DNA of 64,000 nucleotides. It comes from Tateyamaria omphalii (lineage in GTDB: Bacteria > Pseudomonadota > Alphaproteobacteria > Rhodobacterales > Rhodobacteraceae). Each line of letters starts with the position of its first letter. Within the stretch, counting starts at the first letter, position 1. The notes beneath the pieces were generated by a model, which did not search any database, had not been told where the DNA came from, and saw only the letters and a list, made by a program, of their open reading frames with translations. Position numbers and translations under genes: made by a program. Below, in pieces: positions 19,108-38,308 of this stretch. The stretch covers positions 62,001 through 126,000 of the forward strand of contig NZ_JAHVHT010000001.1 of the NCBI RefSeq assembly GCF_019802125.1. The letters run 5' to 3'.

Positions 19108-19123
19108 CGTATAAAGAATTGCT

Positions 19124-20157: not shown

Positions 20158-20402
20158 ACATCGAAACAGAGTTTTCCTCTTTCCCCACTTGTCGCCTCAC
20201 TCTCTCGAGCAACGCCAACTGGACGAAGTTTATCAGTAGCGTGTCTTTCGCTAGCGCGCGGCGCCTTGGATTGCGCCACTCTGGATGACTGTCCAAGTGC
20301 TGGGCTTTGAGTTGCGCGCATCGCCCAGCGATTCAGCACTGTGAAACTGGTTTTTCTGCAATTGCCCTGAATTTCCTTGACTCCAACAGGGTTTTCCAGA
20401 AA

Positions 20403-20438
20403 TTCTATATAACGGCACATTTGTGCTGATATATAGAA
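20403..20438. promoter_or_regulatory. 36-base palindrome upstream of the ABC transporter operon
   Basis: TTCTATATAACGGCACA and TGTGCTGATATATAGAA are inverted arms around a TT centre, matching at 15 of 17 positions. The site ends 16 bases before the binding-protein ATG, just ahead of the AGGGAGGT ribosome site. The left arm, read on the other strand (TGTGCCGTTATATAGAA), recurs exactly at 30185-30201. A regulator operator is likely; the IclR protein encoded at 29021 is the prime candidate. Confidence 0.7.
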
Positions 20439-20454
20439 CAATAGGGAGGTCATC

Positions 20455-21489
20455 ATGCTCACTAAATCTTCTTTTCTCGGCATAGCGGCGGCCGCACTAG
20501 CGATGCTGCCCGCCACCGCTATGGCTGAGAGCCCGACTGTCCAGCAGATCAAAGAACGCGGGACGCTGCTTTGCTCCGGACACAACGGCAGCTACTTCGG
20601 CTTTGTCGAAGTGAACGACAAGAATGAGTGGAAGGGTCTCGACATCGACCTTTGCCGCGCGCTAACCACCGCGATCCTCGGCGATCCGAATGCCAATCAG
20701 ATCGTACCGCTCTCCTGGGCGCAGCGCTTCCCCGCACTACAGTCGGGCGATGTGGACGTCATAATTAAGGCGACGGGCTGGACGATGGGCCGTGACACTG
20801 AACTTGGTCTTCAGTTCAGCCTGCCTTACTTTTTCGGCGGTACTCAGTTCATGGCGCATGGAGATCTTGGCATCACAGAAGCGAAGGATCTCGAAGGCGG
20901 TACGATCTGCGTTGAGGCTGGCACAACCATCGAACGCATTTCGGCAAACTACCTGTCGACGATAGGCGTTGAGCACACGATGGTGTCCTACGAAAGCGCG
21001 GCTGAATTGCGAGCGGCCTACGTCGCCAACCGTTGCGACGCCTTTGCGGGTTGGGGACCGAACCTGGCTGTTCTGCGTGCAACCGAGATCGACAACCCGG
21101 ATGCACACGTGATCCTGAGCGACCAACTTTCGTCCGAACCTATTTCTGCTGCGATGCGTCAGGGTGACGAAGAGTTTGTCGATGTGGTCAACTGGATGCT
21201 GGCCGCGATGCTGATCGCGGAGGAAGAGGGTGTCACCATGGCCAATGTCGAAGAGATGGCCGCGAACCCGCCCAACCCTAAGGTTGCGCGGCTCCTGGGC
21301 GCCGAGCCTGGCATGGGCGAACGGCTTGGCCTACGCGACACCTGGGCCCGCGAGATGATCGCGGCGGTCGGCAACTTTGGTGAGGTCTACGACCGTAACC
21401 TGGGTGCAAACAGCCCCTACAATCTGGATCGTGGTCTCAACAACCTGTGGAGCCACGGCGGCGTTCTCTACGCGCCGATCCTCGACTGA
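20455..21489 (+). CDS. Amino-acid ABC transporter substrate-binding protein (AapJ-like)
   Basis: A 344-residue family-3 periplasmic binding protein. The signal peptide covers MLTKSSFLGIAAAALAMLPA and ends in AMAES. IKERGTLLCSGHNGSYFGF, KGLDIDLCRALTTAILGDP and ALQSGDVDVIIKATGWTMGR follow the AapJ pattern of general L-amino-acid transporters, and the C-terminus carries the AapJ-type extension with YDRNLGANSPYNLDRGLNNL. A strong AGGGAGGT ribosome site precedes ATG 20455. It is the first gene of an operon with two permeases; the partner ATPase is 15 kb downstream at 38309. The substrate may be an unusual amino acid of the island, not a common one; this is inferred from the neighbours. Confidence 0.92.
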   Translation: MLTKSSFLGIAAAALAMLPATAMAESPTVQQIKERGTLLCSGHNGSYFGFVEVNDKNEWKGLDIDLCRALTTAILGDPNANQIVPLSWAQRFPALQSGDVDVIIKATGWTMGRDTELGLQFSLPYFFGGTQFMAHGDLGITEAKDLEGGTICVEAGTTIERISANYLSTIGVEHTMVSYESAAELRAAYVANRCDAFAGWGPNLAVLRATEIDNPDAHVILSDQLSSEPISAAMRQGDEEFVDVVNWMLAAMLIAEEEGVTMANVEEMAANPPNPKVARLLGAEPGMGERLGLRDTWAREMIAAVGNFGEVYDRNLGANSPYNLDRGLNNLWSHGGVLYAPILD

Positions 21490-21502
21490 AGTCAACAGAC
21501 GC

Positions 21503-21530
21503 AAGGGTCGGCGGTTGGGCCGGCCCTTTT
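21503..21530 (+). terminator. Hairpin with T-run between binding-protein and permease genes
   Basis: AAGGGTCGGC pairs with GCCGGCCCTT (one G-T pair) around GGTTGG, followed by TTTT. Such hairpins after a binding-protein gene commonly lower permease expression relative to the binding protein. Confidence 0.65.
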
Positions 21531-21552
21531 CTCTTTCCGGGTAGGGGCCATC

Positions 21553-22689
21553 ATGTCAAAGGCTGATGAGCTGCGCCGCAAGGCGAAGCAACGCAGGTTT
21601 TTTATCCAAGCAGCGCTGGTTGGGTTGTCTGGTTTTGCTGTCGCTGGTGCCTTCATGACCGCGCGAACCAATCTCGAAGCGCAGGGACTGACCAGCGGCT
21701 TCGGGTTTCTGGAGCGCAGTACCGGGTGGGACTATAGTTTCTCACTGGTCGAAAAAAGCATCATGGACCCGTATGCGCAGACGCTGTTTGTCGGGTTTCT
21801 GAACACTTTGTTTGTCGGTTTCATTGCGATCTTCCTGACCACGCTGTTCGGGTTCATCATCGGTACAGCGCGGGATGCGTCGAACATCGCGGTAAAGTCG
21901 GCGGCGACGGTGTATGTACAGGTTTTCCGGAACATTCCGCTGATCCTGCAACTTGTCTTTCTCTACGCGGTGCTCATCAACCTGCCAGGCCCCCGGCAAG
22001 CGATGTCGATGGCGGATACTTTTTTCCTATCGAACCGCGGTTTGATGATGCCGGGGCTGAGCGTCACACCGGGAGTAGCGGTGGCGCTGCTATTGGCGTC
22101 CATTGTGCTTGGAGTCGTGCTGATCTGGAACAAGCAGCCCTTGCTCAGAGGATTGTTGATCTGGATGGGTGGGTCGATTCTGCTGAGCCTGATCGTGGCG
22201 GCGATCATGCGTCCAGAAGGAGAGGCGCTCGTTTCGATCCCTTCGCTTCAGGGCTTGCGGTTCCGGGGCGGGATCACGGTGCCGATCGAGCTGTTCGGCA
22301 TGATTGTTGCGATCACGCTGTATGGCAGTGCCTATATCGCCGAGGTCGTCCGTGGTGGGCTGGCGCAGGTGCCGCGCGGGCTGACCGAGGCCGGGCAGGC
22401 TTTGGGGCTATCGACGGGCCAGATCTGGTCGCGGATCAAGATGCCGATGGCGTTGCGTTCGATCATTCCGCCGTTGGGCAACCAGTGGATCTTCATGATG
22501 AAGGCAACGACCATTGGTGTGGCGATCGGGTTTAGTGACCTCTTTTACATCGTCTCGATCTCGATCACGCAGTCGGGGCAAACGCTGGAGCTTATTGCGA
22601 TTTTGGCGGGCGCGTTCCTTCTCGTGAACGGAGGCTTGGCCGTGTTTACCAACTGGCTCAATGCCCGCATGGAACTGAAGGCACACTGA
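21553..22689 (+). CDS. Amino-acid ABC transporter permease (AapQ-like)
   Basis: A 378-residue membrane protein with an N-terminal segment (RRFFIQAALVGLSGFAVAGA) and a C-terminal HisM-type permease domain. TLFGFIIGTARDASNIAVKS and VYVQVFRNIPLILQLVFLYA are the start of the conserved core; EVVRGGLAQVPRGLTEAGQA then LGLSTGQIWSRIKMPMALRS is the EAA loop that docks on the ATPase. It pairs with the second permease, whose gene begins one base after its stop. The dimeric AapQ/AapM arrangement with a long insert is typical of the Aap/Bzt group. Confidence 0.92.
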   Translation: MSKADELRRKAKQRRFFIQAALVGLSGFAVAGAFMTARTNLEAQGLTSGFGFLERSTGWDYSFSLVEKSIMDPYAQTLFVGFLNTLFVGFIAIFLTTLFGFIIGTARDASNIAVKSAATVYVQVFRNIPLILQLVFLYAVLINLPGPRQAMSMADTFFLSNRGLMMPGLSVTPGVAVALLLASIVLGVVLIWNKQPLLRGLLIWMGGSILLSLIVAAIMRPEGEALVSIPSLQGLRFRGGITVPIELFGMIVAITLYGSAYIAEVVRGGLAQVPRGLTEAGQALGLSTGQIWSRIKMPMALRSIIPPLGNQWIFMMKATTIGVAIGFSDLFYIVSISITQSGQTLELIAILAGAFLLVNGGLAVFTNWLNARMELKAH

Positions 22690-22690
22690 C

Positions 22691-23782
22691 ATGGCCGATA
22701 TCTCAGCATCCGCACCCCCTAGCCCGACGACGTCCATCGGGGCGACATTGCGCAAACGGGCGTTCTCGTCACCATCCGACACGGCTTTGACAGTGATCGT
22801 CTTCGGCATCCTGTTGTGGCTGGCCTGGACCCTGTTCGATTGGGCCATCCTGCGCGCGATCTGGTCGGCGGAAAACGTCGATCAATGCGGCAAGGGTACC
22901 GGGGCAGGGGCCTGTTGGGCCGTCATCGATGCGCGGCACCGACTGATCCTGTTCGGGCTTTATCCGTTCGACCAACACTGGCGGTCAACGCTGGCCGCCG
23001 TGGCGATCATCGCGACGGTCATCCTGTCTTGCATACCTCTGATGTGGACCGCCCGCAGGATCGTCACGCTGTGGATCGTCGGTTTTGCAACTTACTACCT
23101 GTTGATGGAGGGAAGCCTCATCGGGCTGCAACAAGTCACGACAGATGGTTGGGGCGGCTTGTCGCTGACACTGTTCCTGTTCTCGTCGGTCGTGCTGCTT
23201 GGAATGCCGATGGGTCTCGGACTGGCGCTGATGCGGCGGTCGAAGATGCCGTTTGTGCGCGGTTTTGCGGTGGTACTGATCGACTTCGTGCGCTCATTGC
23301 CGCTGCTAGTGACGCTTTTTACCGCTGCCGTCGTGATCCCGATCATACTGCCAAGTTGGTTGGAAGGCGACAAAATCTGGCGGGTCATCATCGCCTTCGC
23401 CCTGTTCTTTGCCTGCTATCAGGCCGAAGTGTTCAGGGGCGGGTTTCAGGCGATCCCGAAGGGGCAGTTCGAGGCCGGGGCCGCGTTGGGACTCAGCTAT
23501 TGGCAGACGCTGGGGCGCATCGTATTGCCGCAAGTATTCCGTCACGCTCTGCCGTCGACGATCAACATGGTGGTCATCACGTTCAAGGAGACAGCGCTGG
23601 TCATCATTATCGGCTTCTTCGACATCATGGCCTCGGCTAAAGCGGCCTTCGGCACAGGTGAATGGGCGCCACATTACCTGGAGGTCTATGTGTTCGTCGC
23701 ACTGATCTACTGGGCGTTTATTTTCTCGCTTGGCCAGTATGGCGAGTACCTGAAAGGCCGCATGGCCATTTCTGAGCGCTAG
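22691..23782 (+). CDS. Amino-acid ABC transporter permease (AapM-like)
   Basis: A 363-residue partner permease. It has an N-terminal hydrophobic region, a periplasmic stretch with CGKGTGAGACWAVIDARH (characteristic of AapM), and a HisM-like core with LLGMPMGLGLALMRRSKMPF, DFVRSLPLLVTLFTAAVVIP and EVFRGGFQAIPKGQFEAGAA as the EAA loop. Start ATG 22691 is one base after the stop of the first permease. A strong terminator follows 25 bases after the stop, so the ATPase is not in this transcript and must come from 38309 or elsewhere. Confidence 0.92.
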   Translation: MADISASAPPSPTTSIGATLRKRAFSSPSDTALTVIVFGILLWLAWTLFDWAILRAIWSAENVDQCGKGTGAGACWAVIDARHRLILFGLYPFDQHWRSTLAAVAIIATVILSCIPLMWTARRIVTLWIVGFATYYLLMEGSLIGLQQVTTDGWGGLSLTLFLFSSVVLLGMPMGLGLALMRRSKMPFVRGFAVVLIDFVRSLPLLVTLFTAAVVIPIILPSWLEGDKIWRVIIAFALFFACYQAEVFRGGFQAIPKGQFEAGAALGLSYWQTLGRIVLPQVFRHALPSTINMVVITFKETALVIIIGFFDIMASAKAAFGTGEWAPHYLEVYVFVALIYWAFIFSLGQYGEYLKGRMAISER

Positions 23783-23806
23783 ACTTTTCCCTCCCTGAAG
23801 ACTGGA

Positions 23807-23836
23807 CGGGCTGCACAGTTGTGCAGCCCGCTTTTT
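23807..23836 (+). terminator. Rho-independent terminator after ABC permease operon
   Basis: CGGGCTGCAC and GTGCAGCCCG form a perfect ten-base stem around AGTT, followed by CTTTTT. It lies between the convergent ends of the permease operon and the ETHE1-like pseudogene and overlaps the latter's stop by two bases. Confidence 0.9.
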
Positions 23837-24724
23837 AAGGTCTGTTCAAGGAAAGCTTCCGTGACATACTGCCATCGTCGTCCCTTGGGACAACTCCCAT
23901 ATGGATGTTCACCTGAAGTGAAGGGATGATGAGGGCGGGCATGGAGAGCTGTGCGTCACGTTCTGTACGCATGCGGATGAAGTCATCGCGGCTCGTGCCG
24001 CCGCCAACGTGGATATTCTCCTCTTTCTGCGCTCCGATCGTGGTTTCCCAGGCGATAGCACGACTGCCTGGCCCATAATCGTGGCACACGAACAGGCGCA
24101 TCCCGTCTGGCAAGGAAAAGACCCGCTGAATGGAATCGTATAGCGCTCCCGCACCCCCATCGGGAAAACCCGCCTTTGCCGAACCGCCATCCGGCATGAA
24201 GAGCGTATCTCCTGCAATGGCTGCGTCGCCGACAACATGAACCATTCAGGCGGGCGTGTGGCCGGGGGTGTGCATGGCGAAACCGTCCATACCTCCGATT
24301 TGGTAGCTGTCACCATCCGCGAAGAGGGCGTCGAATGGAGAACCGTTCCGCTCGAAGTCGGTGCCTTCGTCGAAAACCTTGCCGAAAATGTCCTGGACGG
24401 TGACGATGTAATCGCTGATGCGGATCTTGCCTCCAAGACGCTTCTGAATGTAACGCGCGCCGGTCAGGTGATCTGCATGGACATGGGTTTCAATGATCTA
24501 ATCTAGCTTGAGCTCGTTTGCTTCGATATGATCGATCATCGCGTCGGCGCAATCGAAACTGAGACGGCGAGCGGCGCAGTCAAAACTCATTACCGCGTCG
24601 ATGACCGCACAGGCGTTGCTGTCCGGATCACGAACGATGTAGCTGATCGTGTTGGATTGAGCGTCGAAACACGCGAGCTTACTTTCGCATGAACCGTCAG
24701 GTCGGGATCGGGTGGAGCGGGCAT
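23835..24724 (-). pseudogene. ETHE1-like persulfide dioxygenase (MBL fold), inactivated
   Basis: ETHE1-type enzymes oxidise glutathione persulfide to sulfite using one iron. Pieces of a whole gene are recognisable: start MPAPPDPDLTVHAK at 24724 with an AGGAGG site, ACFDAQSNTISYIVRDPDSN-like segment, ETHVHADHLTGARYIQKRLG (metal-binding HxHxDH), MHTPGHTPA, and AGDTLFMPDGGSAKAGFPDG with CHDYGPGSRAIAWETT to the natural C-terminus. Three lesions break it: a frameshift near 24675-24683, TAG at 24498-24500 where the family has a bulky residue before IIETHVHAD, and TGA at 24246-24248 where the family has a cysteine after GHTPA. Last gene of the minus-strand operon behind the VOC and PLP-enzyme genes. 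Loss may be recent, as the reading frames are otherwise well preserved. Confidence 0.88.
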
Positions 24725-24737
24725 GGAGCCTCCTGCT

Positions 24738-25376
24738 TCAGTCCAGTGTGACCGAGCCCGTGGGTGTGCCCAACTCAAACGAAAGCGCTTCGGGGCCTTC
24801 ATGGAGCTTGGCCAGATGATCGATGGAGAGCGCTTTCAGTGTGATGGAAAGCGCTTCGGGGTCTGGGTGGTGCAGGTGAACGTTTTTTAGCGTCACGCCG
24901 AGGTTCTGCTGCCCTGTGCTGGGATGTGGACCCGGCGACCATTCGATGAATGCGGGCAACAGGCCGCCCATGGGCAAGCTGCCGTCAACGGGCACAGTCA
25001 AACGCCAGGTGCGATCGCCGCGGGCGAAGTCGACGACTTCGCCCAGGTCGACCGGACTTGCCGCGAGGACGCCGTCAAGGTCGTCGGTGTTCACGACCCA
25101 GCAGAGCGCGCGGGGGCGTTCGGCCAACCGGGCCCTTGTGGTGGGATCGTCAAGCGTGAACCAGCGGGTGCGGCTCGGGTCGGGCGCGTCCGGGTCGATA
25201 GCGATCAGTTCGAAGAAACTTTCGTTTCCCGCCTGCATAACGCAGTTATGTGTACTCATCGCGTCGTGTTTGCTGCCGCGTGGCACCTCGACACCGAGTG
25301 TGTCCGACATGGCAGCGACGCCTTTCTCTAGCGTGTCGGTTCCGATGGCGAAATGGTCGATCTTATTGGACGGCAT
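24738..25376 (-). CDS. VOC family protein (glyoxalase-like domain)
   Basis: A 212-residue protein with a glyoxalase-like fold (two VOC modules in one chain). KIDHFAIGTDTLEKGVAAMS begins the first module with a metal-ligand histidine; ESFFELIAIDPDAP supplies a glutamate; TLKNVHLHHPDPEALSITLK begins the second. ATG 25376 has GGAG eight bases upstream and is preferred over a TTG at 25397 that would overlap the previous stop. It lies 17 bases after the PLP-enzyme gene and 13 bases before the ETHE1-like pseudogene, in one operon. The reaction is unknown; in context it may act on a product of the C-S lyase step. Confidence 0.82.
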   Translation of the reverse strand: MPSNKIDHFAIGTDTLEKGVAAMSDTLGVEVPRGSKHDAMSTHNCVMQAGNESFFELIAIDPDAPDPSRTRWFTLDDPTTRARLAERPRALCWVVNTDDLDGVLAASPVDLGEVVDFARGDRTWRLTVPVDGSLPMGGLLPAFIEWSPGPHPSTGQQNLGVTLKNVHLHHPDPEALSITLKALSIDHLAKLHEGPEALSFELGTPTGSVTLD

Positions 25377-25393
25377 GAGTGGCTCCGGATGGG

Positions 25394-26569
25394 TCAAGCG
25401 TTGAGAAGGGGTAGTGCGGCCGCGAGGTCGTCTTTGAGCGACTGAGTATCCTCAAGGCCAATGTTGAAGCGGACAAGCTGGCCCTCCTCGTCCCATGTGC
25501 CCGCGCTGCGGACGGGCTTGACGGGTAGGACGAGGCTCTCAAATCCACCCCAGCTGACGCCGATACCGAAATGGTGAAGCGCATCGACGAAGGCGCGGAT
25601 CTGGTCGTCGTGGCAGGGGTGGAAGGCTACGCCGAAGAGGCCGGAGGCGCCGGAGAAATCACGCTTCCAAAACTCGTGGCCGGGGCAACTCTCAAACGCC
25701 GGGTGTAGGACGCGTTTTGTCTGCGGTTGCTTGGCAAACCAGGCCGCCATCTCGCGCCCTGCGGCGTTGGCGGATGCCATGCGGAGCTTCAACGTGCGCA
25801 GGCCGCGCAGCATCAAGAAGACCTCCTGCCCGCCGGTCTTGTCGCCCACGGCCATGACGGTTTCGCGCACGGCGGCGAAGTGCTCTTCGGTCGTGGCGAT
25901 TGTGCCGAGCATACAGTCGGAGTGGCCGCTGAGGTATTTCGAGCCTGAGGCCACGGAGATGTCGACCCCGAGGTCGAGCGGGCGGCAGAAGAGCGGCGTG
26001 GCCCAAGTGTTGTCAAAGATAGTCGGCAAGCCACGCGCGCGCGCGACGCCTGTGATGGCTAAGATGTCTGGGACCTCAAAAGTGCCGGAGCCGGGGGCCT
26101 CGAACATGATGGCGCAGGTGGTGTCGCGGATCAGAGCGTCCACATCCGCGCCGATCATCGGGTCGTAGTATTCGACCTCGACGTTCATGCGGCGCAAGAA
26201 GTTTACGCAGAAGATGCGGGTGTTGCCGTAGACGTGGTCCGCAACGAGTAGGTGACTGCCCGGGCGTGCGAAAGTCATCAGCGCCAGCGTGATCGCGGCA
26301 ACGCCGGACGAGGTCATGGTGATGCCGTGGGCGCCCTCGAGATCCGCCAGCATCCCCTCGAGCTGAAAAACCGCTTCGTTGCCGTAGCGCCCGTAATACA
26401 TCGTTCCTGGCTCGTAGCGGGCGTCACGGGCGGCCTCGAAGGCGGCGAGCGTGTCAAAAACAATTGTCGAGCCAAGCTCGATCGGCAGATTTACATGGCG
26501 GCCGTCAATGTGGGCCGGACGGCCTCCCTGAACGAGCTGGTCAGCGACTGGTCTGGATTTTTGCGACAT
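25394..26569 (-). CDS. Cystathionine beta/gamma-lyase-like PLP enzyme (Cys/Met metabolism family)
   Basis: A 391-residue fold-type I PLP enzyme of the MetC/MetB group. MYYGRYGNEAVFQLEGMLAD holds the neighbouring-subunit phosphate-binding tyrosine and arginine, EAPGSGTFEVPDI and FDNTWATPLFCRPLDLG the cofactor aspartate, and SGSKYLSGHSD the PLP lysine (K211). These enzymes split C-S bonds of cystathionine, cysteine conjugates or methionine, giving pyruvate or 2-oxobutyrate, ammonia and a thiol; bacterial MetC can take S-alkylcysteines. ATG 26569 starts MSQKSRPVADQLVQGG, a natural family start; a TTG at 26623 lies within a likely operator. First gene of a minus-strand operon with VOC and the ETHE1-like remnant, divergent from the molybdoenzyme. 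The substrate is inferred to be sulfur-containing. Confidence 0.9.
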   Translation of the reverse strand: MSQKSRPVADQLVQGGRPAHIDGRHVNLPIELGSTIVFDTLAAFEAARDARYEPGTMYYGRYGNEAVFQLEGMLADLEGAHGITMTSSGVAAITLALMTFARPGSHLLVADHVYGNTRIFCVNFLRRMNVEVEYYDPMIGADVDALIRDTTCAIMFEAPGSGTFEVPDILAITGVARARGLPTIFDNTWATPLFCRPLDLGVDISVASGSKYLSGHSDCMLGTIATTEEHFAAVRETVMAVGDKTGGQEVFLMLRGLRTLKLRMASANAAGREMAAWFAKQPQTKRVLHPAFESCPGHEFWKRDFSGASGLFGVAFHPCHDDQIRAFVDALHHFGIGVSWGGFESLVLPVKPVRSAGTWDEEGQLVRFNIGLEDTQSLKDDLAAALPLLNA

Positions 26570-26615
26570 GGGATGCGTCCATAGAGTTGACTCGGTTGTG
26601 GCATTGCCCTTCAAT

Positions 26616-26655
26616 TGTGTCAATATTCAGAATATGTGTTCAGCATAGTGGCACA
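26616..26655. promoter_or_regulatory. Degenerate operator pair between PLP-lyase and molybdoenzyme genes
   Basis: TGTGTCAATATTCAGAA (26616-26632) and TTCAGCATAGTGGCACA (26639-26655) are inverted relative to each other with 13 of 17 positions symmetric and a six-base centre. Each matches the arms of the 20403 palindrome at about 12 of 17 positions. Located in the divergent promoter region. Confidence 0.5.
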
Positions 26656-26676
26656 TTGAGTGAGGAACCCACCAAG

Positions 26677-28983
26677 GTGGTCGTAGAGACAAAGCTTACT
26701 GCAAATCACTGGGGCGTCGGTGTCGCCCGGGTGGAAGACGGGCGTATCCTGTCTGTCGAGGCGCACCCCGACGATCCGAACGGCTCGCCGATCAATGACA
26801 ACATTTCCGGTGGTCTGGCGGGGTCGGCGCGCATTCTCCGCCCTGCGGTGCGGAAAAGCTGGCTCGAAGGAGAGCCGGGGCGCGTTCCGCGGGGACGGGA
26901 CGCCTTTGTCGAGGTCTCTTGGGATCGCGTGCTTGACCTGATCGCAGGCGAGCTGGCGCGCGTGCGTGAAATGCACGGCAACGCGGGCATCTTTGCGGGC
27001 AGTTACGGTTGGTCGAGCGCTGGGCGATTTCACCATGCGCAAAGTCAGTTGAAACGGTTCCTGAACTGCATCGGCGGGTTTGTGCGGTCTGAGGGGAATT
27101 ACAGTTACAACGCCGCGCTGGTAATGATGCCTTATATTGTTGGGCCGTTCCGTAGCCATGTCGCGCAGGCGACGAGGTGGTCGGTGATCGCAGAGCATAG
27201 CGATCTGGTCGTGATGTTCGGCGGTATGGCGCTCAGGAACACGCAGGTCAGCGACGGCGGCGTCGCGCGGCACCGGATGGCGGACAACTTAGAGGCCTGT
27301 GCGGAGGCGGGGGTGCAGTTCGTAAACATAAGCCCGCTCAGGACTGATGCCGCCGAGGCGCTCAGCGCAGATTGGATGCCCGCCAATCCCGGCTCGGATA
27401 CGGCGTTGATGTTGGGGCTGGCGCACGTGTTGCACGACGAGGACCTGCACGACCCCGCGTTTCTTGATCGCTACACCGTAGGCTTCGAGAAATTCGAGGC
27501 CTATCTGACCGGCGCCAGCGACGGGGTGGCGAAGACAGCCGAATGGGCAGCCGAGAAAACGGGGCTCGACGCCGCCGAGATCCGTGCGCTGGCCCGGCGT
27601 ATGGCCGGTGGGCGCTGCATGATCTCGGTCGCTGCCGGGGTTCAACGCACCGATTACGGCGAGCAACCGCTCTGGATGGCAGTGACGCTGGCCGCGATGT
27701 TGGGGCAGATCGGTCTTCCGGGCGGTGGCTATACGGTCGGCTACGGCGTGAACGCCAACGTGGGGAACATCGAGCGGCTGTTCCGCTGGGGGACGATGCC
27801 GCAGGGGCGCAATCCGGTGGCGGATTTCATACCGGTGGCGGCAATCTCCGAAATGCTGCTGAACCCTGGTGGGGCCTATACCTATTGCGGTGAGACGCGG
27901 CATTTCCCAGACGCGCGGCTGGTCTGGTGGGCAGGGGGCAATCCGTTTCACCACCACCAGCACCTGAGCCGGTTGCACGAAGCGTTTCAGACGCCCGATA
28001 CTGTGATTGTAAACGACGTCAACTGGACGGCGACCACACGACACGCCGACATCGTGCTACCGGTCGCAGCGGCGCAGGAGCGGCGGGATTTCGGGGCCGG
28101 CAAGTCAGATAATGGATTGATCCCGATGCACGCGCTGACGGCCCCGCCAGGCGAGGCGCGTGTCGAATACGAGATGTATTGTGATTTGGCCGCGCGGATG
28201 GGTGTACTGGAGGCGTTTTCCGAAGGACGATCATCCGAAGAATGGCTTGAGGCGATCTGGGAGCAGACGCGCAGTGCTGCGGCTGGTCATGACCAGAACC
28301 TGCCCGACTGGAAAACGTTCATGGGGGGGGATGTCATTACTCTGCCCGATCCCTCACCAAACCAGATTTTCCTCGCCGACTTCCGCGACGAACCGGCGGA
28401 AAACGCTCTGCCGACACCGAGCGGGAAGATCGAAATCTTCTCCGAGACGCTGGCCTCTTTCGGCCTCGACGATTGCTTCGGTCACGCAGCGTGGTTCCCA
28501 CCGCGCGATCTGGCGGCGGGAATCGGAGAGGTCTACTTGCTGTCAGGGCAGCCGAAGACCCGTCTCCATAGTCAGTTGGATAATGGTGCCTACAGCCTCA
28601 GCCACAAGATCGCGGGGCGGGAACCTGTGCTGATCCACCCCGACGACGCGGCTCCGCTGGGGATTGCGCATGGCGATGTCGTCGAGTTGTTCAATGCGCG
28701 TGGGCGCTGTCTGGCGGGCGCGAAAGTCACCGATGAGATTCGGCAGGGTTGCGTGTTTCTGTGGACCGGCGCCTGGTGGGACCCGGATTTCAATGCGCCG
28801 CAGATGCGCGACCGTCATGGGAACCCAAATGCGTTGACGCACGATCTGCGGACGTCGTCCCTGTCGCAGTCACCCGCGGCGCACTCTGCCAGGGTGTCGA
28901 TGCGAAAGTTCGAGGGTCCATTGCCGGAGATTAGGGTCCACGCACCACCACCCCTTTCAAAAGAGGACGAAGCAGAGGCATAA
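26677..28983 (+). CDS. Molybdopterin oxidoreductase, BisC/DMSO-reductase family, cytoplasmic
   Basis: A 768-residue type III molybdoenzyme carrying bis-MGD, the family of DMSO, TMAO and biotin/methionine sulfoxide reductases. AGSYGWSSAGRFHHAQ keeps the active-site tyrosine and tryptophan (Y110, W112), and EGNYSYNAALVMMPYIVG places a serine (S143) where the molybdenum-ligand serine of DMSO reductase lies. FLAD, PTPSGKIEIFSET and LSGQPKTRLHSQLDNG continue the family pattern to the cofactor-binding C-terminal domain. There is no N-terminal iron-sulfur motif and no Tat signal, as in BisC, so it works in the cytosol. GTG 26677 with GAGGAA nine bases upstream is preferred; the frame runs back to 26464 through the operator and neighbour gene. 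Divergent from the PLP lyase and followed by the IclR gene. Sulfoxide reduction is the best guess; another oxidised substrate is possible. Confidence 0.9.
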   Translation: MVVETKLTANHWGVGVARVEDGRILSVEAHPDDPNGSPINDNISGGLAGSARILRPAVRKSWLEGEPGRVPRGRDAFVEVSWDRVLDLIAGELARVREMHGNAGIFAGSYGWSSAGRFHHAQSQLKRFLNCIGGFVRSEGNYSYNAALVMMPYIVGPFRSHVAQATRWSVIAEHSDLVVMFGGMALRNTQVSDGGVARHRMADNLEACAEAGVQFVNISPLRTDAAEALSADWMPANPGSDTALMLGLAHVLHDEDLHDPAFLDRYTVGFEKFEAYLTGASDGVAKTAEWAAEKTGLDAAEIRALARRMAGGRCMISVAAGVQRTDYGEQPLWMAVTLAAMLGQIGLPGGGYTVGYGVNANVGNIERLFRWGTMPQGRNPVADFIPVAAISEMLLNPGGAYTYCGETRHFPDARLVWWAGGNPFHHHQHLSRLHEAFQTPDTVIVNDVNWTATTRHADIVLPVAAAQERRDFGAGKSDNGLIPMHALTAPPGEARVEYEMYCDLAARMGVLEAFSEGRSSEEWLEAIWEQTRSAAAGHDQNLPDWKTFMGGDVITLPDPSPNQIFLADFRDEPAENALPTPSGKIEIFSETLASFGLDDCFGHAAWFPPRDLAAGIGEVYLLSGQPKTRLHSQLDNGAYSLSHKIAGREPVLIHPDDAAPLGIAHGDVVELFNARGRCLAGAKVTDEIRQGCVFLWTGAWWDPDFNAPQMRDRHGNPNALTHDLRTSSLSQSPAAHSARVSMRKFEGPLPEIRVHAPPPLSKEDEAEA

Positions 28984-29020
28984 ATGAACAGCATTACCGG
29001 AGGAAGAGACGATTACAGAA

Positions 29021-29776
29021 ATGAAAGAGCCAAAGGTTGACTCAACGCTCTCCAAGGGGCTGTCCATACTCGAAAGGCTGGCAGGGTCGAACAGCAGTAT
29101 GGGCGTGACGGAGCTGTCCAAGTCACTCGATCTGACGAAGTCGAACACATTCCGGTTGCTGCAATCGTTGACTGCACTTGGATACGTGAAGCAGAACGCC
29201 GACAAGACATACGCGGCGACGTTGAAAACCTGGCAGGTCGGGCGGGCGCTGCTGGACAATCTGAACTTGCGCGAGTTGGCGGCGCCGGAAATGAAGCATC
29301 TGAGCCAGGAGACCGGCGAGGCTATCTATCTCGCGGTGCCGGAAAATCTGATGGTTGTCTACATTGACAAGCTGGACAGTCCTAAACCGATACGGTCGTG
29401 GAACCCCATCGGTGGGTCGGCGCCGATCCATTGTGTCGGGACCGGCAAGGCCATCCTCGCTCGGAACTATGATGTGCTGCGGCCGCAGGTGACCGGTCAG
29501 CTCAGTCGGCATACCGAACTGACGCTGACGAACATGACGCAGCTCGATGCCGACATCGATGAAACGTTGCGACGTGGTTACGCAATCGATCATGGCGAGT
29601 TTCGCGAGCGGATCCTGAGCTTCGGCGCTGCGATCACCCTGCCCTCGGGCGAGGCGATCGCCGCTCTTGGTGTGTCTTTGCCGGATGTTAACATGCCCGA
29701 GAAGGGACCGGAGTGGCTAGGCTCGCTGGTGGCCCACGCTGCCAACTCTGTAACGGCGAAGGTCGGGCGGACCTGA
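29021..29776 (+). CDS. IclR family transcriptional regulator of the island
   Basis: A 251-residue IclR protein. LSKGLSILERLAGSNSSMGV then TELSKSLDLTKSNTFRLLQS is the N-terminal winged helix-turn-helix; the rest is the effector-binding domain with YLAVPENLMVVYIDKLDS, IHCVGTGKAILA and HGEFRERILSFGAAITLPSG. IclR proteins bind palindromes in the promoters of catabolic operons. It lies 37 bases after the molybdoenzyme stop in the same direction, with GGAGGAAGAG upstream of ATG 29021, so it is in the same transcript. Its stop abuts the stop of the rhodanese gene on the other strand (29776/29777). It is the only regulator inside the 20.4-39 kb island and is the likely binder of the shared palindromes. 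Confidence 0.92.
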   Translation: MKEPKVDSTLSKGLSILERLAGSNSSMGVTELSKSLDLTKSNTFRLLQSLTALGYVKQNADKTYAATLKTWQVGRALLDNLNLRELAAPEMKHLSQETGEAIYLAVPENLMVVYIDKLDSPKPIRSWNPIGGSAPIHCVGTGKAILARNYDVLRPQVTGQLSRHTELTLTNMTQLDADIDETLRRGYAIDHGEFRERILSFGAAITLPSGEAIAALGVSLPDVNMPEKGPEWLGSLVAHAANSVTAKVGRT

Positions 29777-30178
29777 CTACTTTTTCTCGACGGGCTCGAC
29801 CGGGCCGCCCTGTTCCGCCCAGGTCGAGAAGCCTTCTTTCAGGTGCGCCGCGTCAAAACCCATGTCCTGAAGCGTGGCCACGGTAAGCGACGAGCGCCAG
29901 CCAGAGGCGCAGTGGAAGACGTACTTCTTGCCCTCCTGTGCGAAAACCTCCTTGTGATAGGGGCTATCTGGATCGACCCAGAATTCGATCATCCCGCGCG
30001 GTGCATGCACCGAGCCGGGGATCGCGCCAGTGCGCTGGCGTTCGCGGATATCGCGAATGTCGACAATTACTACATTTGGTTCACCGACCATTTTGATCAG
30101 GTCTGTGGTTTCGATTTCCTCAATGCGTGCGCGTGCCGCCTTAACCATCTCGGAGGAGGAGAGCTTGAGCTTTGTCAT
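29777..30178 (-). CDS. Rhodanese-like sulfurtransferase domain protein
   Basis: A 133-residue single rhodanese domain. VVIVDIRDIRERQRTGAIPG opens the fold, GSVHAPRGMIEFW follows, and FHCASGWRSSLTVATLQDMG contains the active-site loop with C90 (C-x3-G-W-R-S). Such proteins carry persulfide sulfur between donors and acceptors. ATG 30178 is chosen because it begins the conserved N-terminus; the frame runs upstream through the divergent promoter. An exact half-site of the island palindrome lies seven bases upstream of the start, overlapping the leader. Together with the ETHE1-like remnant it points to sulfane-sulfur handling in this island. Confidence 0.9.
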   Translation of the reverse strand: MTKLKLSSSEMVKAARARIEEIETTDLIKMVGEPNVVIVDIRDIRERQRTGAIPGSVHAPRGMIEFWVDPDSPYHKEVFAQEGKKYVFHCASGWRSSLTVATLQDMGFDAAHLKEGFSTWAEQGGPVEPVEKK

Positions 30179-30184
30179 AGTATT

Positions 30185-30225
30185 TGTGCCGTTATATAGA
30201 ACAAGTTTTTCATATATTGACACGA
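30185..30225. promoter_or_regulatory. Island operator half-site between rhodanese and FAD oxidoreductase genes
   Basis: TGTGCCGTTATATAGAA at 30185-30201 is identical, over 17 bases, to the reverse complement of the left arm of the 20403 palindrome; with flanks, 20 of 22 bases match the right arm. TTCATATATTGACACGA (30209-30225) is a degenerate second half in inverted orientation. It sits in the divergent region in front of both genes. Confidence 0.65.
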
Positions 30226-30285
30226 CAAAGGGGTTGATGCAACCTTCCCATACTGAGGTCACTCTGACTTTCGCGGGGGTCTGCC

Positions 30286-31560
30286 TTGAAACGCAACGGT
30301 GCAATTTCGCTTTGGGACACCTCCGCCGCTGAGGAGGACTATACCAATCCGATGACCGAAGACGCCACGGTTGATGTTGCAATCGTGGGTGGCGGGTTTA
30401 CCGGTCTGTCGACCGCGTTGCACTGTGCTGAGGTCGGGCTAAAGGCGCTGGTGCTGGAGGCGAACCACATCGGTTATGGCGGGTCCGGGCGCAATGTCGG
30501 ATTGGTCAATGCGGGCGTCTGGCATCCGCCGGCCAAGGTTCGTGAAAAGTTGGGTGACACCTACGGGCCGCGCTTTGTGCAGCGGTTTGGCGAGGGACCT
30601 GAGAAGGTTTTCTCGCTGATCGAAAAGCATCAGATTCGCTGTGAGGCGACGAAAACGGGCACGCTCCACGCGGCCCACGCGCCCTCCGGCTTCGAAGATT
30701 TACGGTCGCGCTACGAAGAATGGAAGCGGCTGGATGCGCCAGTTGAGTTGCTCTCCCGCGACGAGATGGCCGAAAAGGTTGGGACCAAGGTGTTTCACGG
30801 CGGTCTGTTGGATCAGCGCGCCGGGACGATCAACCCTATGGGCTATTGCCGGGGTCTGGCGCGCGCGGCACGCGGCGCGGGCGCCGAAATTGTCACGGGC
30901 GTTCGGGCGAAGAAGCTGCGCAAGGACGGTGCCGGATGGGTCGTTGAGACGACCGCTGGAACGGTCAGCGCGAAACATGTCGTGTTGGGCACCAATGCCT
31001 ACACGGACGAGCTTTGGCCGGATCTGAAACGCGTCTTTACGATGATCCACTATTTTCAACTCGCTACCGAACCGATGGGCGACCGCGTGATGCACATCCT
31101 GCCCGAGCGGCAGGGGCTGTGGGACACCGGGCAGATTATGTTCTCGCTGAGGCGCGATATGGAGGACCGTCTGATTATCGGCTCGATGGGCACGGTCGTC
31201 GGCTCGGTGGGGCAAGGGCTGTCGCATCGTTGGGCGAAGAAGCAGCTCACGCGGCTGTTCCCAGATCTCGGGCCGGTCACGTTCGAAGAGGCATGGCACG
31301 GACAGATTGCCATGACACCTGACCACCTGCCACGCATCTACAATCTCGGCGACGGGCTATACACCTCAATCGGCTATAACGGGCGCGGGATCACGACCGG
31401 GACGCTCTTTGGCGAAGCGATGGCCGAGTTGCTGTCGGGTGCCGACCCGGCGGACCTGCCGCTGCCGATCACAGATGTGACGACGGTACCGTCGGCTCCC
31501 ATCATGTCGCGGCTCTACCAGACCGCGTTCACTGCAAACCAAATTCTGAGAAGTCTCTGA
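30286..31560 (+). CDS. FAD-dependent amino-acid/amine oxidoreductase (DadA/PuuB-like)
   Basis: A 424-residue flavoprotein of the D-amino-acid-oxidase-like group. VDVAIVGGGFTGLSTALHCA is the dinucleotide-binding motif (GxGxxG type), VLEANHIGYGGSGRNVGLVN the following FAD-contact region, and GLYTSIGYNGRGITTGTLFG the C-terminal FAD-binding region. Relatives oxidise secondary or primary amines, such as gamma-glutamylputrescine or D-amino acids, to imines or aldehydes. The TTG at 30286 gives the AISLWDTS N-terminus typical of PuuB-like proteins and follows GGGGGT; an ATG at 30352 would remove it. First gene of a long operon to 39046 with hyuAB, SDR, ligase, RidA and ABC ATPase. The specific substrate is unknown. 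Confidence 0.88.
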   Translation: MKRNGAISLWDTSAAEEDYTNPMTEDATVDVAIVGGGFTGLSTALHCAEVGLKALVLEANHIGYGGSGRNVGLVNAGVWHPPAKVREKLGDTYGPRFVQRFGEGPEKVFSLIEKHQIRCEATKTGTLHAAHAPSGFEDLRSRYEEWKRLDAPVELLSRDEMAEKVGTKVFHGGLLDQRAGTINPMGYCRGLARAARGAGAEIVTGVRAKKLRKDGAGWVVETTAGTVSAKHVVLGTNAYTDELWPDLKRVFTMIHYFQLATEPMGDRVMHILPERQGLWDTGQIMFSLRRDMEDRLIIGSMGTVVGSVGQGLSHRWAKKQLTRLFPDLGPVTFEEAWHGQIAMTPDHLPRIYNLGDGLYTSIGYNGRGITTGTLFGEAMAELLSGADPADLPLPITDVTTVPSAPIMSRLYQTAFTANQILRSL

Positions 31561-31564
31561 CAAG

Positions 31565-33652
31565 ATGTCCCAACCAGAAGTCCGCGTCGGCGTCGACATT
31601 GGCGGCACATTCACCGATGTTGCGCTTGCCCATCCCGGCGGGCTGTCGACGACGAAAGTTCTGACGAACTACAGCCAGCCGGAGCAAGCGATCCTTGACG
31701 GGATCGAGAAGGCCGCCAAACAGGCCGGGGTGCCCCTGTCGGCGATTGAGCAAGTGATCCACGGCACAACGCTGGTCACCAACGCATTGATCGAACGGCG
31801 CGGTGCGAAGCTGGCCTTCATCACGACGGAAGGTTTCCGGGACGTGATTGAGATGCGGTCGGAAAACCGCTTCGAGCAGTATGACTTGAACCTGAACCTC
31901 CCGGTCCCGCTGGTTCCGCGCAGCGACCGTCTGACGCTCAACGAGCGCATGGGGCCGGCGGGCGAGGTTCTCATGCCGCTGGACGCAGGCGAGATCGCCC
32001 AAATGGCGCAGCGCGTCGTGGACGGCGGGTACGAGGCGGTGGCGATCGGACTGATGCACGCCTATGCCAACGACGCGCACGAGGTGCAGATGGCCGAAGC
32101 GCTACGGAAGGTCGCGCCGGATCTGTCGATTTCGATCTCTTCGGTGATCTCGCCGCAGATGCGCGAGTTGCCGCGCTTCAATACCGTGATTGCAAACGCT
32201 TACGTGCAGCCGCAGGTAGCCGACTACCTGAGTCGGTTGGTATCGCGTCTGCGCGAGGCGGGCGTGGGTGCTCCGGTCTTCATGCTACACTCGGGCGGCG
32301 GGTTGATCTCTGTCGAGACGGCCGCCGAACAGCCCGTGCGGCTGTTGGAATCCGGTCCAGCCGGGGGCGCGATCTACGCCGCTGACTTCGCGCGCGCGCA
32401 TGGGCTCGACAAGGTCCTGAGCTTCGACATGGGAGGGACGACAGCGAAGATTTGCCTCATCGAAGACGGCAGCCCGAAGACGGCGAACACCTTCGAGGTC
32501 GCGCGAACCTATCGCTTCAAGAAGGGCTCCGGTATGACGGTCTCGACCCCAGTGGTCGAGATGGTCGAGATCGGGGCGGGCGGCGGCTCGATTGCCTCGA
32601 TTGACGCGATGGGGCGCATTCAGGTCGGGCCGAAGTCGGCCGCCTCGGAACCGGGGCCCGCATGTTATCAGCGCGGCGGCGAGGAGCCGACGGTCACGGA
32701 CAGCAATCTGCTGCTCGGACGGTTGGACCCGAAGAATTTCGCGGGCGGGGCCATTCCGCTGTCGCCGGAGTTGTCGGACACCGCGGTGAAGGCGCGGTTG
32801 AGTGAAGCGACCGGGCTTTCGACCCAAGACGCCGCCTTTGGCGTGACTGAGATGGTGGATGAGAACATGGCCAATGCCGCCCGGGTTCACACGGTGGAAA
32901 ACGGGCGCGACATCGAGCATTTCACGATGATCGGCTTCGGTGGCGGCGCACCGCTCCATGCCTGCCGGCTCTGTGAGAAACTCGGCATCCGCGAACTCTT
33001 GATCCCGCCAGGTGCGGGAGTCGGCTCGGCCATCGGGTTCCTGAAGGCGCCGTTCAGCTACGAGGCCACGCGGGGTCTGTTCCAGCGCCTGTCCGACTTC
33101 GATGCGGGCGCGGTCAACGAAATGCTGGCCGAGTTGGAGGAGGAAGCCACGGCCTTTGTCCGCGCGGGCGCGGCCGATGCAGAAACCAAGACGCAACTGA
33201 CAGCCTTTATGCGCTACTCGGGGCAGGGTTGGGAAATTCCGGTGCCGCTGGAGCACAAGACCTTTGCAGAGGGTGACGCCGAGATGGTCCTCGCGGCCTT
33301 TGAAGAGGCGTATCGGACGCTCTTTGGCCGGATCATCGATGGGCTGGCCTGCGAGATCACGAACTGGTCGCTGATCGTGGCGACGGTTTTGCCCGAGGTC
33401 ACGGCGGCGGCGCGGCATGATGGCGGGATGGCGGCGACAGCAATCCGCACCCGGCAGTTCTACGACGCCGCAAAGCGCCGCATGGTCGATGCCGAGGAAG
33501 TCGTGCGCGAGGCGCTTTCGCCCGGTGTCAGCGTGGACGGCCCGGCGGTGATCGTGGAGCAGGAAACGACCACGATTGTGACCTCGGCCTACCGGGTCAC
33601 GGGGCAGGGCGACGGCAGTTTATTGTTGAGCTGTAAGGAGGGCGCAGCATGA
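31565..33652 (+). CDS. hyuA: Hydantoinase/oxoprolinase A subunit (HyuA family)
   Basis: A 695-residue ATP-dependent ring-opening subunit. VRVGVDIGGTFTDVALAHPG is the N-terminal ASKHA phosphate-binding loop; IHGTTLVTNALIERRGAKLA, FMLHSGGGLISVETAAEQPV, LSFDMGGTTAKICLIEDG and EIGAGGGSIASIDAMG are the conserved HyuA motifs. With the B subunit it hydrolyses cyclic amides such as N-methylhydantoin or 5-oxoproline at the cost of ATP; related enzymes also open 2-oxothiazolidine-4-carboxylate. It starts five bases after the FAD oxidoreductase stop and overlaps hyuB by four bases. Which ring is opened here is not known. Confidence 0.9.
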   Translation: MSQPEVRVGVDIGGTFTDVALAHPGGLSTTKVLTNYSQPEQAILDGIEKAAKQAGVPLSAIEQVIHGTTLVTNALIERRGAKLAFITTEGFRDVIEMRSENRFEQYDLNLNLPVPLVPRSDRLTLNERMGPAGEVLMPLDAGEIAQMAQRVVDGGYEAVAIGLMHAYANDAHEVQMAEALRKVAPDLSISISSVISPQMRELPRFNTVIANAYVQPQVADYLSRLVSRLREAGVGAPVFMLHSGGGLISVETAAEQPVRLLESGPAGGAIYAADFARAHGLDKVLSFDMGGTTAKICLIEDGSPKTANTFEVARTYRFKKGSGMTVSTPVVEMVEIGAGGGSIASIDAMGRIQVGPKSAASEPGPACYQRGGEEPTVTDSNLLLGRLDPKNFAGGAIPLSPELSDTAVKARLSEATGLSTQDAAFGVTEMVDENMANAARVHTVENGRDIEHFTMIGFGGGAPLHACRLCEKLGIRELLIPPGAGVGSAIGFLKAPFSYEATRGLFQRLSDFDAGAVNEMLAELEEEATAFVRAGAADAETKTQLTAFMRYSGQGWEIPVPLEHKTFAEGDAEMVLAAFEEAYRTLFGRIIDGLACEITNWSLIVATVLPEVTAAARHDGGMAATAIRTRQFYDAAKRRMVDAEEVVREALSPGVSVDGPAVIVEQETTTIVTSAYRVTGQGDGSLLLSCKEGAA

Positions 33653-35298
33653 GCGGGCCAACCAGCATCGACTTTCAGATCATGTGGAACCGGCTGATCG
33701 CGGTGGTCGAGGAACAGGCCACCACGCTGATCCGCACGGCATTTTCGACCTCGGTGCGCGAGGCGGGTGACCTCTCGGCGGGGCTGTTCGACCGGCAGGG
33801 CCGGATGATCGCGCAGGCTGTGACGGGCACGCCTGGGCATGTGAACGCCATGGCCGAAAGCGTGACGCATTTCGTACGCGAGATCGGCGTTCAGGAGATC
33901 TACGAGGGCGACGTTCTCATCACCAACGACCCCTGGATGGGCACTGGGCATCTGCACGACATCACCATCGTGTCTCCCGTGTTCCGTAAGGGCACGCACA
34001 TTGGCTACTTCGCCTGTACGGCGCATGTGGTGGATATTGGCGGGCGCGGGTTTGGGCCGGATGGTAACGAGGTTTACGAAGAAGGCCTGCTGATCCCGAT
34101 CATGAAGTTCGCCGAGCGCGGGCAGGTGTCGAAAGACCTCGTGCGCCTCATCCGCTCCAACGTGCGGACGCCGGACCAGACGGTGGGCGATATCTACTCG
34201 CTGGCGGCCTGTAACGAGGCGGGCGAGCGGCGGCTTCAGGCGATGCTGGACGAGTTTGACATCGATAATATCGACGGGCTCTCGGATTTCATCATCGAGA
34301 CCAGCCGGAAGGCCACACATGAAGCCATTGCAAAGGTGCCGGACGGGATGTTCGAGCATACGATGCAGGTCGATGGCTACGAGGCGCCGGTGCATATGGC
34401 GGTGCGGTTGGACATCGAAGGCGACACGCTTTTGGCGGATTTCGCCGGAACCAGCGGCATGAGCCGGTTCGGCGTGAACTGCCCCGAGGTCTACACGCGG
34501 GCCTACGCCTGCTATGGGTTGAAATGCGCGATTGCGCCGCAAGTCCCGAACAACACCGGCTCACTAGAGCCGTTCCGCATCACCGCGCCCGAGGGCTGCA
34601 TTCTGGCCGCCAAGCGCCCCGCGCCGGTTTCGGTGCGCCATGTGATGGGGCATCTGGTGCCGGACGTCGTCTTGGGCGCGCTCCACAAGGCGCTGCCGAA
34701 CACGGTCCCGGCGGAGGGGTCGTCGGCGCTTTGGAACATTCAGATCTCGTCGCGGGCGAGCGACCCCGACAGCGGGTTGCCGAACCGCGAGGTGCTGATG
34801 TTTAACTCCGGCGGCACCGGCGCCCGGCCCTCGTTCGACGGGCTGTCGGCGACGGCGTTTCCTTCCGGCGTCTCGACGATGAGCGTCGAGGCCACCGAGC
34901 AGGTCGGCCCGATCACTGTTTGGCGCAAGGACTTGCGGGCCGGGTCCGGCGGTGCGGGCGCGCTGCGCGGCGGGCTGGGCCAGACCATCGAGATCGAGCC
35001 GCGCGCGGGCTATGACTTCTACTTCAACGCCATGTTCGACCGGGTCAAGAACCCCGCACGGGGCCGCGACGGCGGTGGCCCAGGTGGCGAGGGGCGTGTG
35101 GAACTGGCCGATGGCACACAACTTCGCTCGAAGGGGCGACAGCTTGTGAAGAACGGCCAGCGGCTTGTGCTGAGCCTGCCGGGCGGCGGCGGCTACGGCG
35201 TGCCGTCCGGGCGCGATCCGGCACTCGTTGCCGCTGATGTCGACGCGGGGCTGATTACGAAAGAACAGGCGAAGGCCGACTACGGGCAGGATATCTGA
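33649..35298 (+). CDS. hyuB: Hydantoinase/oxoprolinase B subunit (HyuB family)
   Basis: A 549-residue B subunit. FQIMWNRLIAVVEEQATTLI, TAFSTSVREAGDLSAGLFDR (conserved core), VLITNDPWMGTGHLHDITIV and GVNCPEVYTRAYACYGLKCA follow the family, and the C-terminus contains GYDFYFNAMFDRVKNPARGR and a glycine-rich SLPGGGGYG. It supplies the amidohydrolase half of the ATP-dependent enzyme. ATG 33649 overlaps the hyuA stop by four bases, indicating coupled translation, and the SDR gene begins one base after its stop. Confidence 0.9.
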   Translation: MSGPTSIDFQIMWNRLIAVVEEQATTLIRTAFSTSVREAGDLSAGLFDRQGRMIAQAVTGTPGHVNAMAESVTHFVREIGVQEIYEGDVLITNDPWMGTGHLHDITIVSPVFRKGTHIGYFACTAHVVDIGGRGFGPDGNEVYEEGLLIPIMKFAERGQVSKDLVRLIRSNVRTPDQTVGDIYSLAACNEAGERRLQAMLDEFDIDNIDGLSDFIIETSRKATHEAIAKVPDGMFEHTMQVDGYEAPVHMAVRLDIEGDTLLADFAGTSGMSRFGVNCPEVYTRAYACYGLKCAIAPQVPNNTGSLEPFRITAPEGCILAAKRPAPVSVRHVMGHLVPDVVLGALHKALPNTVPAEGSSALWNIQISSRASDPDSGLPNREVLMFNSGGTGARPSFDGLSATAFPSGVSTMSVEATEQVGPITVWRKDLRAGSGGAGALRGGLGQTIEIEPRAGYDFYFNAMFDRVKNPARGRDGGGPGGEGRVELADGTQLRSKGRQLVKNGQRLVLSLPGGGGYGVPSGRDPALVAADVDAGLITKEQAKADYGQDI

Positions 35299-35299
35299 C

Positions 35300-37944: not shown

Positions 37945-37947
37945 GAC

Positions 37948-38292
37948 ATGATTGAACGCATGCATACCTCGGACCGGATGAGCAAGATCGTGAAGCACAA
38001 TGGCGTCGCCTACCTGTGCGGGCAGGTCGGGGCGGGCGAGACGGTGGCCGAACAGACCATGGACTGCCTGAACCGCGTCGACGCCCTGCTGGCTGAGGCT
38101 GGATCGGATCAAAAGCACATCTTGCAGGCGATCATCTGGCTGGCCGATATGTCGGACTTTGCCGAGATGAATGCAGTTTGGGATGCCTGGGTGCCTAAGG
38201 GCCATGCGCCTGCACGCGCCTGTGGCGAAGCCAAACTGGCCCGCGATGTTTTGAAAGTCGAAATCATAGTGACCGCCGCAGTCAAAACCTGA
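37948..38292 (+). CDS. RidA/YjgF/UK114 family enamine/imine deaminase-like protein
   Basis: A 114-residue RidA-family protein: [20 protein letters not shown], then [20 protein letters not shown] and [20 protein letters not shown]. The family arginine in PARAC is kept, the residue that binds the carboxylate in deaminating members. RidA hydrolyses reactive enamines such as 2-aminoacrylate, made by PLP C-S lyases, to keto acids and ammonia. Its gene lies three bases after the ligase and 16 before the ABC ATPase. It fits well with the cystathionine-lyase-like enzyme encoded at 25394 or with imines from the FAD oxidoreductase; this is inference. Confidence 0.88.
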
Positions 38293-38308
38293 CGTTGAGG
38301 AGACAGTT

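Follow-up and report, generated by a model that had tools for sequence, protein, structure and literature searches.

In a 64,000-nucleotide stretch of the Tateyamaria omphalii genome (hereafter the window), three intergenic places in an island of genes each carry two 17-bp sites whose starts lie 21 bp apart, or about two helical turns (20402/20423, 26617/26638 and 30186/30207). Judging from sequence, it is highly probable that these places are the operators of one local regulon, each bound at its two sites by the IclR-family regulator encoded at 29021-29776. Going by the arrangement of the genes, these three places face five transcription units, as the original prediction for this DNA had stated: an ATP-binding cassette (ABC) transporter operon, a pyridoxal-phosphate (PLP) lyase operon opening with MetC, an operon of a BisC-family molybdoenzyme and iclR, a rhodanese gene and an operon opening with a flavin adenine dinucleotide (FAD) oxidase (Table 1).

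The prediction had started from a palindrome at 20403-20438 (17+2+17, with 15 of 17 matches), whose left arm recurs inverted at 30185-30201 with 17 of 17 matches. Recomputation returned both results, as well as the 20 of 22 identities between 20420-20441 and 30183-30204, and the weaker inverted pair at 26616-26655 is also present. An exact 17-base match was held to be improbable by chance, and simulation agrees with this: a shared 14-mer on either strand appeared in only 2 of 2000 order-1 Markov runs of the three intergenic stretches, while the real stretches have a 17-mer in common. The repeat itself is confirmed. Its better unit is the paired 17-bp IclR-type operator at 21-bp spacing, and not, as first described, one 36-bp palindrome with weaker echoes. 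The palindrome at 20403 arises because the two sites of that pair, centred 45 and 24 bp ahead of the transporter ATG, are inverted and nearly identical. Two things had been missed, namely the partner site at 30207-30223 and the fact that all three places share a spacing of 21 bp.

A collection of related loci allowed us to examine how specific this arrangement is. We used 30 genome contigs, Alpha- and Gammaproteobacterial, that hold an IclR orthologue 56 to 90% identical in its best segment (L001-L030). With spacings of 17-25 permitted in these relatives, the best pairs whose mismatches summed to at most 5 were all spaced at 21; in Roseibium loci the partner of the site on the solute-binding protein side differs between scans. 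Expectation-maximisation on 63 upstream regions (L004-L030 minus L011, with the window and L001-L003 excluded) gave a 38-bp tandem motif, TGTTCcGaTATAtAgAACA..taTtccatATATTGACA, of 36 bits. In the window this motif scores 55.4, 40.0, 29.5, 27.8, 26.6 and 17.5 bits at the three places and their reverse-strand readings, all above the top score of 13.6 in 100 Markov simulations of the window, a control that covers the scan and not the derivation of the motif. Matches at 5.9 and 2.2 bits overlap the same three places, and the first unrelated place in the window scores 0.9. Across the whole 4.49-Mb genome, the pattern TTCTATATAWCRGCACA (17 bases) is matched three times without mismatch, always at the 20402/20423 and 30186/30207 places. 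Two more matches have 3 mismatches; only the exact ones carry weight, because a backward control pattern also gives 5 matches at 3 or fewer mismatches. The original prediction would have been refuted by a motif scattered over many unrelated loci. A sequence-only model built from 50 sites of the relatives, with the window's own sites left out, instead ranks the three island places first (E 2.5e-10, 6.3e-7 and 0.046), the next place elsewhere in the genome having an E of 1.7.

Placement in the 30 loci follows the starts of operons. The genes of the island recur widely: FAD oxidase in 29 loci, HyuA in 26, HyuB, the short-chain dehydrogenase/reductase (SDR) and VOC in 25 each, BisC in 24, MetC and the P2 permease in 23 each, the solute-binding protein (SBP), the P1 permease and rhodanese in 22 each, the ABC ATPase in 21, the ACS-like ligase in 19 and a metallo-beta-lactamase-fold piece in 12. 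Sites above 16 bits, counted by script where they lie directly upstream of a gene, precede the operon-first genes FAD oxidase (27/29), rhodanese (22/22), BisC (23/24), MetC (21/23) and SBP (17/22). For six genes inside operons, the same count is zero: P1 0/22, P2 0/23, HyuB 0/25, SDR 0/25, ACS 0/19 and ATPase 0/21. HyuA has an upstream site in a single case of 26, namely L030, where it is the first gene. VOC has one in four of 25 loci (L003, L021, L023, L025), and there it faces BisC or IclR directly. The five SBP genes lacking a site comprise a truncated gene (L002), one at a contig edge (L021) and those of L014, L016 and L025; L001 has no site at either BisC or MetC. Contig ends truncate several loci, and a small number of the gene matches are distant paralogues. 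Because some loci share DNA (L005 and L011) or are close to each other (L007 and L008, L010 and L012), the numbers of independent cases are smaller than these counts by a few. Two further sites were seen. In L013 an extra weak one (9946-9985, 16.7 bits) lies just upstream of iclR within the BisC-iclR operon, and in L030 a 35-bit tandem site (17217-17256) stands ahead of genes for a family-5 solute-binding protein and permeases, a different type of transporter.

Promoter anatomy suggests how these operators could act. The most conserved half-site, TTGACAC, is the outer half-site in both divergent regions, points to the FAD oxidase and MetC genes, and contains the -35 hexamer TTGACA. In the window this hexamer lies at 30217-30222 within the site facing the FAD oxidase gene, and as the complement of 26618-26623 in the MetC-facing half-site. 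The stretch 17 bases past TTGACA is CAACCT-like at 26 FAD sites and CATCAT-like at 22 MetC sites, with the window in both sets, and position 2 of this candidate -10 element is an A in 25/26 and 22/22 cases respectively. The assignment of the -10 elements rests on spacing and conservation and not on consensus, because other offsets resemble TATAAT better on average: 15 nt at the FAD sites (2.62 vs 1.88) and, slightly, 14 nt at the MetC sites (3.45 vs 3.09). A sigma-54 promoter was considered from the pattern TTGACAC...TTGC, and was rejected by eye as its spacing is too long.

Under the regulon that we propose, the pairs 26617/26638 and 30186/30207, in divergent promoter regions, would serve four units, and 20402/20423 would serve the ABC transporter. 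The 21-bp spacing would place two IclR dimers or one tetramer on one face of the DNA, and the operator would cover the -35 hexamer facing MetC and FAD. In the simplest case, bound IclR would then bar RNA polymerase until a metabolite of the pathway releases it, and iclR, lying directly behind BisC, would regulate itself. Covering of the -35 hexamer suits such repression. One possible alternative, tentative but to be taken seriously, is that the same sites and the same IclR serve activation, with RNA polymerase being recruited at the poor -10 elements of at least the FAD and MetC operons and repression acting elsewhere. The weak -10 candidates speak for activation, and so does BhcR, the best NCBIfam model for this IclR: in Paracoccus denitrificans this IclR-type protein is an activator, and its palindrome precedes the -35 element (PMC11323563). 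Here TTGACA is inside the site and not downstream of it, and the window's IclR reaches only 155.7 bits of the cut-off of 350 for the BhcR model, which makes the analogy a loose one.

The regulator at 29021-29776 is very probably the binder of the sites. In a comparison of 28 IclR sequences that includes the window's, the DNA-recognition segment (residues 35-52) averages 0.79 identity to the window, against 0.71 for the helix-turn-helix (HTH) domain and 0.66 for the effector domain. IclR is present in 30/30 loci, but it was the query. A measure of association comes from 248 genomes of the family, of which 12 have sites (E <= 0.01), 10 have an IclR orthologue (E <= 1e-60) and 9 have both (hypergeometric 2.6e-13); among these nine, only G203 shares site DNA with the loci of the model. 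Sites were found in 11 of 292 genomes of the order (E <= 0.001). Stretches of five of these were read besides that of the window's genome: those of G395, G417, G423 and G471 show island genes and iclR, and that of G470 shows neither the island nor a site above 15 bits. Three genomes of the same genus (G240, G424, G449) have no match to the site model, and the island is therefore sporadic. Split islands add to this picture. In G471 the island is divided over two places about 560 kb apart with sites at both, and in G110 a rhodanese-FAD-SDR stretch with a site is on a different contig from BisC-iclR, so that in both genomes the FAD operon retains its site away from iclR. Sites kept in trans, together with the extra transporter site of L030, would fit a diffusible regulator.

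Several observations weigh against the regulon as proposed. A sigma-70 consensus scan of 20250-30300 finds no promoters, where 2.8 are expected from shuffles, and the -10 candidates are weak. When compared to the group 1 consensus for IclR operators (PMC8222616), the six sites have 2, 2, 3, 3, 4 and more than 4 mismatches, and scanning with that consensus alone was unspecific, with two unrelated places in the window at 2 mismatches; the derived motif was used instead. The fit of the ABC place to the tandem model is poor, with an E of 0.046 and a match to half of the model, since the two sites there are inverted. Sites are missing at SBP in L014, L016 and L025, at FAD in L024 and L025, and at MetC in L026. 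Additionally, the best site of G007, which has an IclR orthologue, reaches only 16 bits, the BisC-iclR stretch of G110 has no site above 15 bits, and three genomes with a site (G043, G136 and G174) lack an IclR orthologue at E <= 1e-60.

These last three genomes speak for a different regulator binding the sites, with iclR accompanying them by happenstance. In G174 the site is flanked by homologues of FAD and rhodanese. No island gene was found in the stretches fetched for G043 and G136, whose weak tandem sites (16 bits at about 5118 of L072 and 18 bits at about 3571 of L074, respectively) are attributable to chance or another regulator. We regard a different binder as quite unlikely, since the spacing and the outer boxes match the IclR family and no rival regulator was recognised as travelling with the island. 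The window's LysR, considered for this role, recurs in 0/30 loci and was rejected. The extra open reading frames (ORFs) found in at least three loci form six clusters (RidA-like, two out-of-frame readings, CoA transferase, sulfatase-like and thiol-dioxygenase-like), none of which looked like a regulator when translations were judged by eye, with Pfam or PDB matches for three. The earlier naming of IclR as the likely binder accordingly holds as a prediction, supported by the coincidence of sites and orthologues across the 248 genomes and by the absence of LysR from the loci.

That the 36-bp palindrome works instead at the RNA level, as a leader hairpin of the ABC operon, seems very unlikely. 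The window palindrome does fold, at -17.5 kcal/mol (z -7.9), as does the corresponding stretch of L004 (z -5.1). Pairing is lost in the other two of the three relatives folded (six sequences in all), L007 (z -0.8) and L015 (z 0.1) folding no better than shuffles; the other two window places are not strongly folded (z -1.6 and -1.3), and no Rfam family matches 20000-30600 at E <= 0.1, so this reading was rejected. A chance match or functionless repeat, for which the exact arm on its own could be taken as a copied element, is hardly credible given that the spacing is fixed, that the sites stand at the starts of operons in contigs of both Alpha- and Gammaproteobacteria, and that within the genome they are confined to the island.

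Table 1. Predicted operators, candidate promoter elements and genes of the island (window coordinates)
Feature	Position	Strand	Basis
Putative operator site 1, ABC-transporter promoter	20402..20418	+	Consensus scan; tandem motif 26.6 bits
Putative operator site 2, ABC-transporter promoter, 21 bp from site 1	20423..20439	-	Consensus scan and tandem motif
Putative operator site, MetC<>BisC divergent promoters	26617..26633	-	Consensus scan; tandem motif 40.0 bits
Putative second operator site, MetC<>BisC region, 21 bp away	26638..26654	+	Consensus scan and tandem motif
Putative operator site, rhodanese<>FAD divergent promoters	30186..30202	-	Consensus scan; tandem motif 55.4 bits
Putative second operator site, rhodanese<>FAD region, 21 bp away	30207..30223	+	Consensus scan and tandem motif
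Candidate weak -10 CAACCT, FAD side, 17 nt after TTGACA	30240..30245	+	Predicted; position conserved in relatives
Candidate weak -10 CACAAC, MetC promoter, 17 nt after TTGACA	26595..26600	-	Predicted
IclR-family regulator, likely binder	29021..29776	+	HTH_IclR (PF09339) and IclR_C (PF01614) above cut-off; orthologues; HTH conservation
ABC transporter operon: solute-binding protein and two permeases	20455..23782	+	ORFs and domain/family matches
PLP-lyase operon: MetC-type lyase (25394-26569), Glyoxalase_3 protein (24738-25376 or longer)	24738..26569	-	MetC start putative
BisC-family molybdoenzyme	26677..28983	+	Putative start at GTG
Rhodanese-domain protein	29777..30181	-	Domain match
FAD oxidase, HyuA, HyuB, SDR, ACS-like ligase, RidA-like protein, ABC ATPase	30286..39046	+	Neighbour gaps <=16 bp

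Some further features of the island and its surroundings deserve mention. Between the ACS-like ligase and the ATPase lies the RidA-like gene (PF01042; 37948-38292, + strand), with similar ORFs in seven loci; its product would suit imine intermediates. At 23838-24724 on the - strand, a gene for a metallo-beta-lactamase-fold, persulfide-dioxygenase-like protein is broken by two in-frame stops and a shifted N-terminal frame. The intact copy in L004 matches PDB entries 4ysk and 9g8t, the former of which we take to be a persulfide dioxygenase. Decay is also seen in the nearest relatives: L001 (6866-9933) has permease matches in shifted pieces and shortened MetC and BisC, and in L002 (6647-7465) remnants of SBP and MetC adjoin. 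Next to the island, sulfatase-like, TRAP transporter and LysR genes occupy 14464-20008. They look like a separate unit, in which TRAP and LysR do not recur with the island (TRAP permease matches are found in 1/30 loci). Beside the island of L018 (16848-19372) are genes for a thiol-dioxygenase-like protein, a family III CoA transferase and an enoyl-CoA hydratase-like protein, of which the first matches 3-mercaptopropionate dioxygenase (E 8.7e-9) and has no Pfam match. Similar ORFs occur in L017 and L026 for the dioxygenase-like protein and in L014 and L024 for the CoA transferase.

The gene content gives hints about what the island may be for. A BisC-family reductase, a MetC-type lyase, a rhodanese and a metallo-beta-lactamase-fold protein point to a sulfur compound, and the pipecolate-oxidase-like FAD enzyme with the caprolactamase-like HyuAB points to a step on a cyclic amine or lactam, so that the island may break down a sulfur-containing amino acid; the gene set of L018 hints at a mercapto-acid intermediate. 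A more specific proposal, offered as a guess that is improbable as it stands, is that the regulon of IclR and its paired operators is a pathway not yet described, acting on sulfur amino acids that are cyclic or S-oxidised, for example the chondrine-type thiazane carboxylates of seaweeds or cycloalliin-type compounds. In such a pathway reduction of the sulfoxide would fall to the BisC-family enzyme. A lactam would be formed by the SDR and the FAD enzyme that resembles pipecolate oxidase, and would be opened by HyuAB at the expense of ATP. Cleavage by the MetC-type lyase would yield pyruvate, ammonia and a mercapto-acid, and the sulfur and carbon ends would be dealt with by the rhodanese, the persulfide- or thiol-dioxygenase-like protein and the ACS-like ligase or a CoA transferase. 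In the limited literature collection that was searched, the gene set of the island was not found described, and neither was degradation of thiomorpholine, S-carboxymethyl compounds or chondrine. Among the matches listed, none concerned bacterial breakdown of chondrine or cycloalliin by title and start of abstract, and by the same measure none of the caprolactamase, 5-oxoprolinase and IclR papers describes the island.

Tandem IclR operators are a known kind of element. What is new relative to that collection is their predicted control of this island, which would join five transcription units in a single regulon with one predicted regulator, conserved in Alpha- and Gammaproteobacterial contigs. 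The exact fragments and a spacing rule are now defined. Because the genes beside the operator vary (as in L030 and L018), the operator can also be used as a tag to collect parts of a probable sulfur-amino-acid pathway.

Comparison with described systems places the operators close to a published class and the proteins at some distance from their nearest models. In 94 orthologous groups, IclR-family sites have been reported to occur in pairs whose centres are separated by 18-22 bp, which was attributed to binding by a tetramer (Suvorova and Gelfand 2021, PMC8222616). Like the group 1 tandem operators of that study, ours consist of two palindrome-like sites with GTT/GTG...AAC/CAC outer boxes and belong to a local regulon adjoining the regulator gene; their centres are 21 bp apart, which is within the published range at all three places, and a regulator with HTH_IclR and IclR_C is encoded beside them. 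In contrast to the group 1 consensus given there, GKTYCRYW3-4RYGRAMC, the central positions of the window sites deviate. BhcR (PMC11323563) is likewise an IclR-family regulator of a catabolic cluster and is the best NCBIfam match of the window's IclR (NF045644); with a score this far below cut-off the protein is not BhcR, and the island encodes other enzymes. Among NCBIfam models, HyuA and HyuB are best matched by caprolactamase CapAB (447 and 204 bits, cut-off 1000 in each case) and the FAD enzyme by L-pipecolate oxidase AmaA (463.5 bits, cut-off 600), which makes the island enzymes relatives, and not members, of these families.

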